Of a stretch of DNA of 49,618 bases, positions 10,159 to 49,618 are shown one piece after another. Positions within the stretch are counted from its first letter, which is position 1, and every line of letters begins with the position of its first letter. The stretch is from positions 1-49,618 of the forward strand of contig CAJBPB010000277.1 of NCBI GenBank assembly GCA_903957365.1, given 5' to 3'. The translations under genes and the position numbers were made by a program. Under the pieces are notes generated by a model that made no database searches, was not told the origin of the DNA, and saw only the letters and a program-made list of their open reading frames with translations. Origin of the DNA: an uncultured Bacteroidota bacterium. GTDB taxonomy: Bacteria > Bacteroidota > Bacteroidia > Bacteroidales > F082.

Positions 10159-10185
10159 CTTATTTATAAAATATTGTTAAGTAGT

Positions 10186-10323
10186 TTGTCCATAATGTCC
10201 GATTTCTTCGTTATTCATAATCTTCAAATCAGTCATGTACCTCAGTACACTCCTGATTTTCAGCTCATCGAAACCTCAAACTCGAACATTCTGAATCAAA
10301 CTCCCAACTTTATGGACAGATAC
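10186..10323. repeat. 130-bp imperfect-palindrome repeat, copy 1 (MITE-like)
   Basis: The conserved core is 10188-10317 (130 bp). It begins GTCCATAA and ends TTATGGAC, a perfect 8-bp terminal inverted repeat. Inside, further arms pair: a GATTTC-containing left arm with a related right arm in other copies, and a central hairpin with AATCAG/CTGATT and TGTAC/GTACA. By hand count about 119 of 130 positions match copy 2. The flanks carry an exact 8-bp direct repeat, TAAGTAGT, at 10178-10185 and 10324-10331. It lies between the stop of the kelch-like gene (10352) and the start of the DUF1801 gene. Confidence 0.88.
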
Positions 10324-10351
10324 TAAGTAGTATCTGGTACCGATTTTTTAT

Positions 10352-13795: not shown

Positions 13796-14000
13796 TTCTG
13801 ACCTACCTCTAATTTTTTCATTCATAATCAGTGAGTTACTACAATATAAATCTTTAGCTTAAGTTCAAATTTACTGATTTGTTTTAAAATAATTTCACAA
13901 TTCTGAATAATTTGGCAAGAAATAAAAGTTCAACCGGGGCTTCTCCGTATTGCTATCGGGAAGGTCGTGCCGGGCACATGAAGCCACAATACTTGGGCAT
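13796..14000 (-). repeat. Cassette-type repeat A, after the PIN toxin gene
   Basis: About 205 bp that align in direct orientation with 14748-14990. Shared blocks include CATTCATAATCA-TGAGTTAC, AAATCTTT, GATTTGTTTT, GTTCAAC and CACATGAAGCC. By eye the first block is roughly 70-75% identical; the second is interrupted by about 10-16 extra bases in this copy. Read on the minus strand it follows immediately after the PIN gene stop, the same relation repeat B has to the lipoprotein gene. It also holds the inverted pair GTATTG/CAATAC. Confidence 0.6.
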
Positions 14001-14747: not shown

Positions 14748-14990
14748 TTCTGACTAAAGCCAATTTTATCATTCATAATCATTGAGTTACCATAACCGAA
14801 ATCTTTCGGTTTGAGTCAAATTTAAGGATTTGTTTTTGAATTCTTTTCAAAACTATTTTTTATCAATCAAGACTTATCACAACCAAAACCCAATCCAATT
14901 TCCATATAAAGTGCAAGGTAAGGGGATCGTTCAACTGGAGCCTCATGCTTGGTCGTACCGGCCACATGAAGCCCTAATTATTATGCCCAG
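14748..14990 (-). repeat. Cassette-type repeat B, after the orphan lipoprotein gene
   Basis: About 243 bp related in direct orientation to repeat A (13796-14000). It ends about 6 bp from the stop of the lipoprotein gene at 14996, just as repeat A ends about 7 bp from the PIN gene stop. It contains ACCGAAA-TCTTTCGGT-type complementary arms and the conserved GGTCGTACCGGCCACATGAA block. I could not match it to an integron attC consensus. Confidence 0.6.
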
Positions 14991-33112: not shown

Positions 33113-35284
33113 ATGAAAAAAATCGTATTGCTATTTGTTACCTTTTTAAGCATTTTCCGTTTCACAGCCAGCGCGGATGAAGGCATGTGGATTCCTATGT
33201 TTATCGACCGTCTCAACTACACCGATATGCAGAAAATGGGACTGAAACTCACTGCAGAAGAAATTTACAGTGTGAACAACGGAAGCATCAAAGATGCTAT
33301 CGTAATATTTGGCCGGGGCTGTACCGGGGAAATTATCTCAGACCAGAGTCTGATTCTCACCAATCACCATTGTGGTTATGGCTCCATTCAGTCGGTAAGT
33401 TCAGTCGAAAGCGACTATCTGACCAATGGATTCTGGGCAAAATCGCACAGCGAAGAAATCCCTGTTTCAGGCCTGACCGTTCAGTTTTTGATCAGTATGT
33501 CAGATGTTACAACCGCCATGCTGGCCGGTACCACTGAAAACACTACCGAAGCGGAGAGAATTGAAATACTCAAAAAAAACAGGAAAAGTATTGAAACACA
33601 AGCCACAACCGGCAACCATTATAATGCTGTTGTGAAGGATTATTTTGAAGGAAACGAATTCTATCTTCTTGTTTACGAAACTTTTAAAGATATTCGTTTG
33701 GTTGGAGCGCCACCCGAAGTAATTGGAAAATTCGGTGCCGACACCGACAACTGGATGTGGCCACGTCACACCGGCGATTTCTCCATGTTTCGTGTTTACG
33801 CCGGTGCTGACAACAAACCTGCCGAATACAGCGCTGATAACAAACCTTTCAAACCGCGTCATTTTCTTCCTGTTTCAATTGCCGGAATTCAAAAAGACGA
33901 TTTTTCAATGATCATGGGAAATCCCGGAACCACAGACCGTTACCTCACATCCTGGGGCGTTGATATGGCAGTTGAAGAAACCGGTCCAACTATCGTGAAA
34001 ATCCGTGAAGAAAAATTACGTATCATGAAAGAAGGTATGGATGCTGATGAAAAAGTCCGTCTGCAATATTCTTCAAAATACGCTGGAACAGCAAACTACT
34101 GGAAATTTTTTATCGGCCAGACAAAAGGTTTAAAACGCTTAAAAGTTGCCGAACAAAAGAAACGGATCGAAGCCGACTTCAATGCATGGATGGATGCCAG
34201 TCCGGTAGAAACAAAATTGTACGGAAACGCATTACCATTGATATCAGGCGCTTACAGTACCATTCGCCAATACAATGTCAGCCGTTTGTATTATGCTGAA
34301 GGAATCATGCGTGGCAGTGAGATTCTGGGTTACGCCAACCGCTTCGATAAACTGAAACAATTGCTTGCCGATAAAACTGCTACACCAGAAACCATAGAAG
34401 CAGAAGTGAAACAATTGAAATCAGGCGCTACCGGACAGTTTAAAGATTACAACCGTCAGGTTGACCAGAATCTGCTTTCAGAGATGCTTTCCATGTTCTC
34501 GGCTAATGTGAAACCTGAACACCAGCCAGCAATGTTAAAAGAAATGGCAGCAAAATACAAAAACAATTTCGCAGCAATGGCTGCCGATATTTTTAGCAAA
34601 TCGAATTTTGTCAGCGTCGAAAAAGTGAATACACTGCTCAACGATCCGAAAGTAAAAACAATTGAAAAAGATCCCGCTTACAAACTGGTACAGGCTTTCA
34701 TGAAGGAATTTACGGTTCTTCAGAAACAAAGCGAAGCGGCAAATTTCGATCTGCAAAAAGGAAACCGGTTGTTTTTGGCCGGATTACGCGAAATGCAACC
34801 AGGACGCAAGTTCTATCCAAATGCAAATTCCACCTTACGCATGACTTACGGTACGGTTCTGGATTATTATCCGGCCGATGCAGTTCATTACGATTTTACC
34901 ACTAACCTGGATGGCGTAATGGAAAAAGAAGATCCTTCTGTGCGTGAGTTTACAGTTCCTGAGAAAATGAAGGAAATTTACAAAAACAAGGATTTCGGTC
35001 CTTATGGAAATCCAGATGGCACAATGACAGTGAACTTCCTTACAACCCATGATATTACTGGCGGGAACTCAGGCAGTCCGGTGATTGACGGACAAGGCCG
35101 CTTAATTGGTTTGGCGTTCGACGGAAACTGGGAAGCCATGAGCGGAAATATCGCTTTTGAGCCTAAACTTCAACGTACGATCAATGTTGATATCCGCTAC
35201 GTTATGCTCATTATCGATAAGTACGCCGGTGCACAAAACCTGATTGATGAGATGGTGATTGTGAATGACAGACCAATTAAATAG
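33113..35284 (+). CDS. S46 family dipeptidyl-peptidase, DPP7-like
   Basis: A 723-residue periplasmic exopeptidase that removes N-terminal dipeptides. A signal peptide ends near residue 21 (FTASA). The catalytic elements are the histidine in LTNHHCGYG (residues 85-86), the aspartate in DTDNWMWPRHTGDFSMFRVY, and S653 in GGNSGSPVIDGQG. Eighteen residues after the serine is a glycine (G671 in FDGNWEAMSG). In DPP11 this position is arginine and gives Asp/Glu preference; glycine is the DPP7-type state with hydrophobic preference. The role would be peptide nutrition. Repeat copy 2 starts immediately after the stop codon. The promoter box is at 33059-33066. Confidence 0.93.
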   Translation: MKKIVLLFVTFLSIFRFTASADEGMWIPMFIDRLNYTDMQKMGLKLTAEEIYSVNNGSIKDAIVIFGRGCTGEIISDQSLILTNHHCGYGSIQSVSSVESDYLTNGFWAKSHSEEIPVSGLTVQFLISMSDVTTAMLAGTTENTTEAERIEILKKNRKSIETQATTGNHYNAVVKDYFEGNEFYLLVYETFKDIRLVGAPPEVIGKFGADTDNWMWPRHTGDFSMFRVYAGADNKPAEYSADNKPFKPRHFLPVSIAGIQKDDFSMIMGNPGTTDRYLTSWGVDMAVEETGPTIVKIREEKLRIMKEGMDADEKVRLQYSSKYAGTANYWKFFIGQTKGLKRLKVAEQKKRIEADFNAWMDASPVETKLYGNALPLISGAYSTIRQYNVSRLYYAEGIMRGSEILGYANRFDKLKQLLADKTATPETIEAEVKQLKSGATGQFKDYNRQVDQNLLSEMLSMFSANVKPEHQPAMLKEMAAKYKNNFAAMAADIFSKSNFVSVEKVNTLLNDPKVKTIEKDPAYKLVQAFMKEFTVLQKQSEAANFDLQKGNRLFLAGLREMQPGRKFYPNANSTLRMTYGTVLDYYPADAVHYDFTTNLDGVMEKEDPSVREFTVPEKMKEIYKNKDFGPYGNPDGTMTVNFLTTHDITGGNSGSPVIDGQGRLIGLAFDGNWEAMSGNIAFEPKLQRTINVDIRYVMLIIDKYAGAQNLIDEMVIVNDRPIK

Positions 35285-35285
35285 A

Positions 35286-35425
35286 GTTCGTCCATAATGT
35301 CCGATTTCTTCGTTATTCTCGATCTTAAAATCAGTCATGTACCTTAGTACACTTCTGATTTTCAGCTCTTCGAAACCTCGAAATCGAACATTCTGAATCA
35401 AACTCTCGACTTTATGGACATACAC
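35286..35425. repeat. 130-bp imperfect-palindrome repeat, copy 2 (MITE-like)
   Basis: Core 35290-35419, exactly 130 bp like copy 1, with GTCCATAA and TTATGGAC ends. Folded, AATGTCCGATTTC pairs with a right arm reading GAAATCGAACATT, and AAAATCAG pairs with CTGATTTT around a TGTAC/GTACA centre. An 8-bp direct repeat TAAATAGA flanks it (35278-35285 and 35426-35433). The left flank includes the final AAA TAG of the peptidase gene, so the element seems to have inserted at the stop codon and copied it. A shared 16-18 base bulge lies in the right arm. Confidence 0.88.
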
Positions 35426-35532
35426 TAAATAGAAGTGTCCGGACTAAAAAGTCCGCTTTCGTCGTCATGTTTGATTCAAAAATGCTCAACCATAATTAAG
35501 ATCAATATTCAGCCTGCATAGCGGGTTTCTGG

Positions 35533-49504: not shown

Positions 49505-49562
49505 ATACCAGAACAATCAATTTGAACCAATTCTGAACATAAAAAAGTCGCGGACTTAATTA

Positions 49563-49618
49563 GTCCATAAAGTCGGGAGTTTGATTCAGAATGTTCGGGT
49601 TCGAGATGTCGATGAGCT
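49563..49618. repeat. 130-bp imperfect-palindrome repeat, copy 3 (reverse, truncated by window end)
   Basis: The last 56 bases are the reverse complement of the right end of copies 1 and 2, beginning with GTCCATAA. By hand about 51 of 56 positions match copy 1. The rest lies past the window edge. The outer flank (read out of the element) is TAATTAAGTCC, so an 8-mer such as TAAGTCCG is the expected direct repeat on the other side. Just outside, an incomplete hairpin (GGACTTAATTAGTCC) suggests insertion into a terminator-like sequence. Confidence 0.8.

Follow-up and report, generated by a model that had tools for sequence, protein, structure and literature searches.

A probable MITE-like repeat family with TANNTA target duplications, enriched at stop codons, in environmental Bacteroidota

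Two full copies and one cut copy of a short repeat lie in the window, by which we mean the whole stretch of 49,618 nucleotides of Bacteroidota DNA analysed here, and they belong to a family that is very probably a non-autonomous, MITE-like DNA transposon. This reading draws on a unit of about 142 bp with inverted ends, on the duplication of a TANNTA target, on high copy numbers and on a distribution that is patchy across orders. The unit is non-coding, with no gene of its own, and is present in tens of copies, and about a hundred in some genomes, of environmental Bacteroidota.

A sequence-only reading had placed 130-bp copies at 10188-10317 and 35290-35419, with a further one at the window edge, in either orientation. 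The two full copies are indeed 130 bp each and 91.5% identical (119/130). A third copy, on the reverse strand, shows only its end at 49563-49618 (91% over 56 bp), as the window stops inside it; the claim on orientation held as well. The 130-bp repeat stands, and only its boundaries were too narrow: when the flanks of the copies are lined up, similarity extends beyond GTCCATAA at both sides, and in copy 2 the true unit is bounded by the imperfect inverted ends GWGTYTGTCCATAA and TTATGGACRGACWC (Table 1). Copy 2 fits the proposed position directly behind a gene stop exactly, its junction being the stop codon itself; copy 1 lies 28 bp and copy 3 about 116 bp beyond the stop. Judging by the window's contig, which breaks off inside a copy, the element is probably among the causes of broken assemblies in environmental Bacteroidota. 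An alternative right end, with GGAC directly against TAATTA and the outer 6 bp absent, is seen at 49557-49568 and at a second locus (L012), where TAATTA stands at both sides.

Table 1. Copies of the element and adjoining features in the window
Feature	Position	Strand	Remarks and basis
Copy 1	10184..10323	+	2 bp of GAGTTTGTCC missing at left end; sequence, alignment, flank comparison
Left target duplication TAAGTA, copy 1	10178..10183	.	Sequence, target duplication statistics
Right target duplication TAAGTA, copy 1	10324..10329	.	Sequence
Copy 2, 142 bp	35284..35425	+	First G completes TAG stop of S46 peptidase gene; sequence, ORF, Pfam PF10459
Left target duplication TAAATA, copy 2	35278..35283	.	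Overlaps stop codon; sequence
Right target duplication TAAATA, copy 2	35426..35431	.	Followed by G; sequence
Copy 3, right part only	49563..49618	-	Cut by contig end; ends GTCCATAA straight against TAATTA, outer 6 bp absent
TAATTA adjoining copy 3	49557..49562	.	Opposite side beyond contig end; sequence
Subfamily B fragment adjoining copy 2	35434..35499	-	78% identity, E 9.3e-8

Across copies, both termini carry imperfect inverted ends of about 14 bp (GWGTYTGTCCATAA), and directly outside the unit on both sides stands TANNTA, a 6-bp duplication. Among 117 elements selected from all gathered loci solely on the basis of their ends, the duplication is exact in 63, whereas 1000 shuffles gave 22.8 on average and never more than 34; these counts include related copies and shared insertions, and the shuffles therefore overstate independence. 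It is the two variable middle bases that account for the excess (95 versus 59.0 and 96 versus 63.1), and the sole further excess at any other length is small (4 bp; 7 versus 2.2, maximum 6). The target is mostly TAATTA, with a pyrimidine before and a purine after it, and is best written CTAATTAG. Requiring the end pair together with a duplication matching at five or more of six positions yields 114 elements, related copies and shared insertions again included, and the reversed pattern yields none; 84 of the 114 measure 140-149 bp, the flanking TA of each side included. In six genomes the ends were matched 75, 151, 46, 203, 152 and 20 times, against 5, 3, 1, 4, 1 and 6 for the reversed-pattern controls, the excess being weakest in G153 (20 against 6, compared with 203 against 4 in another genome). 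In view of the three genomes with between 151 and 203 end matches, the element is widespread in these poorly studied environmental Bacteroidota. The shared boundaries expected of such a family are borne out, with target duplications flanking the copies.

The interior is less constant. The core covers at least 70% of it in 85 of the 114 elements, part of it in 19 and none of it in ten, and these ten keep the ends and the duplication around unrelated interiors; hence the mobile unit seems to be defined by its ends and not by what lies between them. Some elements hold other repeats or a different central hairpin. Repeat-like sequences of other kinds lie between the ends at seven loci (L164, L197, L198, L158, L119, L205 and L266), among them a GTCATTGCGA...CGCAATGAC palindrome, which we take to be common in bacteria, and in one genome (G151, loci L239-L278) CCCGATAGCTATCGGG and TGAGCGAAGCGAACTCA modules lie within some elements and partly replace the central hairpin. 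A subfamily B (L017:1633-1786) has the same ends, a partly different interior and more decay; it gives 43 matches in the host genome, at least nine of which are copies of the main type (A), and some A and B copies abut with one TAATTA common to both (L007, L017).

The many genomic copies predicted from the window are present: the host genome (4.44 Mb) holds at least 41 full or partial matches, a lower bound, because scoring covered 40 of 68 first-look candidates and the list lacks copy 3. Within the same family 16 of 149 genomes, the host's included, and 10 of 16 genera have a match, and none of three other genomes of the host genus does; this survey scored at most five candidates per genome, and several of its matches are short or weak (worst E 7e-4). 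An exact 23-base core pattern was found in at least 97 stretches, labelled, among the matches listed, Bacteroidales (54), Flavobacteriales (11), Chitinophagales (6), Bacteroidota without order (16) and Chlorobiota (10), the labels being the records' own and some possibly wrong. Host copies reach 95.2% identity to one of two CG18 (Flavobacteriales) copies and 93.1% to Vicingaceae KA17, but no more than 82.2% to any of 11 copies from their own family, with median best matches of 90.0%, 88.6% and 78.8%, respectively; one KA17 copy (L215) is wrongly counted in the group 'other' in this comparison. That host copies are nearer to a Flavobacteriales copy than to these 11 suggests horizontal spread across Bacteroidota orders; alternatively, the sequence may be under strong constraint. 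Because a tree of 126 copies resolves poorly, the argument for spread relies on identity. Plasmids and phages searched gave no match, and viral contigs gave none with two patterns and, with a third, one match inside a long ORF that we take as chance. Nearest-neighbour identity has a median of 94.5% among host copies and 96.6% among 20 KA17 copies (at least 98% in 5/20); only 4 of 32 host copies reach at least 98% with their nearest neighbour, a distribution that does not call for recent activity.

Most of the repeat was said to fold back on itself, and this is real: on the plus strand the z score is -4.5 for copy 1 and -4.7 for copy 2, and on the minus strand of copy 2 it is -7.2, with 0 of 200 shuffles as good in each case. 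The minus strand folds better in 123 of 126 copies. RNAalifold applied to a large MAFFT alignment returned almost no structure, and we therefore used a 20-sequence alignment (A2), hand-picked from 28 diverse copies plus the window's two, in which one member with an unrelated interior (L164) was kept in the counts. In these 20 diverse copies a 37-pair structure has 92.7% of its cells paired, a percentage raised by its derivation from the scored alignment itself, and slid versions of it drop to 38-44%. Double changes occur at 23 pairs (shuffled, 11.3) and in 69 cells (21.3), and 0 of 500 shuffles were as high. The centre reads GGAG followed by a hairpin that varies between copies (TTTAC..GTAAA, TGTAC..GTACA, CCCGATAGCTATCGGG), and tandem G.A/A.G and G.U are conserved in the central stem (108, 117 and 116 of about 125 cells). 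The 3' end of the better-folding strand fits an internal segment better than it fits the other terminus: with the segment at columns 24-29 it pairs in 91.7% of cells and covaries (A-U 9, U-A 9 at one pair), whereas with the opposite terminus 85.4% are paired, 8 of 20 sequences are unpaired at the same column and 4 of 13 pairs have a double change.

Insertions lie almost entirely outside genes. With ORFs of at least 100 codons from a simple caller, 2 of 93 elements (126 minus 33 rows dropped for short or repeated flanks) overlap an ORF by more than 30 bp; in a set of 103, none is classed inside an ORF, as against 1969 of 2751 free sites. A stop codon is hit exactly by 47 of the 103, in two registers, compared with 84 of 782 free sites outside ORFs that carry one of the three most frequent target hexamers. 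When free sites lying 1-100 bp downstream of genes serve as the reference, stop codons have an odds ratio of 4.7 (p 1.4e-7), which becomes 3.0 (p 0.0036) if the extended motif YTAWWTAR is required (3.8 and 3.2 in an earlier version of the comparison); in the cleaner register, with the stop before the junction, the values are 4.7 (p 7.9e-5) and 4.1 (p 0.0038), all p values being optimistic because copies are not independent. In the second register the element's first G completes TAG, and the right target copy still reads as a stop in 26 of 28 cases (TAG 15, TAA 10, TGA 1), so most such genes are not truncated. Orientation at stop codons is 38 versus 10 (2 unassigned), and further downstream 18 versus 12, which is not significant. 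Copy 2 adjoins an S46 peptidase gene (ORF 33113-35284, TAG stop 35282-35284), and the G after its right TAAATA indicates that TAG stood there before insertion. Three orthologues from the same genus (83-87% identical) stop at this very residue, the codon being TAA or TAG, and lack the element; they are not syntenic beyond the gene end, and the empty site is therefore reconstructed from the gene end alone.

Under the MITE-like reading, a transposase acting in trans would bind both ends, move the unit and insert it where a staggered cut of 6 bp opens TANNTA (best CTAATTAG). Almost all persisting insertions lie outside genes, and stop-codon sites are over-represented with the gene intact, TAATTA or TAAATA already containing TAA or the element's G turning TA into TAG. 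Such a position offers mobile DNA a simple route to multiply in compact genomes while genes stay unbroken. Less certainly, the minus strand of copies 1 and 2 may be kept foldable as a single-stranded DNA substrate of transposition or as RNA.

How the stop-codon enrichment arises is a sub-question within the MITE-like reading. Survivorship alone, in which TANNTA insertion is random and the harmless sites remain, is rather probable and fits the absence of elements inside ORFs; stop codons are, however, enriched even over the sites 1-100 bp downstream, which should be about as harmless, and remain so with the extended motif. It is unlikely, in our judgement, that the family is instead adapted to stop codons, with a transposase, perhaps a single-copy host gene without ends, that prefers termination sites, a terminal G that restores the stop, a gene that sets orientation, and a folded single strand that is recognised while the interior is exchangeable. 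It is quite improbable, too, that selection maintains the unit as a functional RNA or as an element of 3'-UTRs (terminator, processing site, sRNA), with mobility secondary. The strong covariation and pairing, the conserved G.A/A.G and G.U, the better-folding minus strand and the skewed orientation at stop codons all speak for such an RNA, but relative to the upstream gene that strand is antisense in most cases (49 versus 20 between tandem genes), copy 2 shows no promoter- or terminator-like site, and Rfam holds no known ncRNA match that would explain the conservation. Patchy presence and the 6-bp duplication favour mobility, and DNA copying between hairpin arms could also create covariation and mimic selection.

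The other rival is a REP-type element mobilised by a RAYT (Y1) transposase with GGAG-hairpin-TGAC as a tagged REP. The GGAG centre with its variable hairpin and the presence of Y1 genes in 8 of 9 genomes tested would suit it, yet we hold it to be highly improbable: four central hairpins tested occur in none of the 30 Y1 loci examined among 58 matches in nine genomes, a scan that also included the end core GTCYATAAWGTC and found no gene bounded by it, and a REP origin of the centre was rejected on this ground. The genome with 151 end matches (G149) has no Y1 match, and Y1 transposition leaves no target duplication, whereas here there is one of 6 bp. Four Y1 (RAYT-like) genes whose flanks were read (L286, L292, L284 and L293) are accompanied by palindromes of their own, of a different kind.

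The sequence-only reading had proposed to look for a transposase with the same ends; none was found among the PF01609, PF00665 and PF01797 loci examined or behind unpaired ends, in fragmented assemblies where contig ends cut many loci. Helpers of the IS4/IS5 type (PF01609; 21 matches in six genomes) and with rve (6 matches in five genomes) were set aside after their loci were scanned for ends, none of which brackets a gene; at PF01609 loci L228 and L322 and rve locus L335 an element or end lies beside the gene, not around it. G151 and G152 (203 and 152 ends) have no rve match, and G149 has one rve match and one weak PF01609 match. By eye, no recognisable transposase lay behind 23 unpaired ends, out of 321 ends in all, or within 70 long end pairs that might have been autonomous copies, those with ORFs above 100 codons being judged from their first residues. 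The transposase of the element is a defined target for search.

No named family came to light: Rfam gave no match, a text search of open-licence PMC papers for end and core strings found no paper describing the element, and nor did searches on MITEs, repeats and targets over titles and abstract starts of open-licence PMC papers. ERIC is an imperfect palindrome of about 127 bp with TA as its target duplication. The element shares with it the imperfect palindrome build, the intergenic position, the many copies and the absence of coding, but duplicates TANNTA rather than TA and has no match in an E. coli collection (20,395 records, blastn E 0.01); the likeness to ERIC drawn by the sequence-only reading is upheld in build and copy number, and the element is not ERIC itself. 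An excerpt of PMC10969869 describes ERIC/IRU of enterobacteria as mostly intergenic, non-coding and present in many copies of strongly varying number. In Porphyromonas gingivalis, according to an excerpt of PMC4596501, the MITEs are BrickBuilt, MITEPgRS, MITE239 and MITE700, of which BrickBuilt and MITEPgRS share ends and not interiors; the ends, GAGACCTTTGCA among them, match ISPg elements, and BrickBuilt sites show 4-bp duplications. These are likewise Bacteroidota MITEs with common ends and differing interiors, but the ends given in that excerpt are, by eye, unlike the element's, and no IS with the element's ends was found here. TIMEs differ from the element in having Tn3-type ends. Going by the title of PMC4133298, these Tn3-derived miniature elements are mosaic and non-autonomous, as is ours. 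REPs with RAYT, short palindromic repeats of high copy number in an excerpt of PMC3733652, differ in that the element has inverted ends and a target duplication and that the Y1 loci inspected lack its hairpins.

A second repeated pair in the window, 85 bp long and 78% identical, lies at 13811-13895 and 14762-14846, 951 bp apart.
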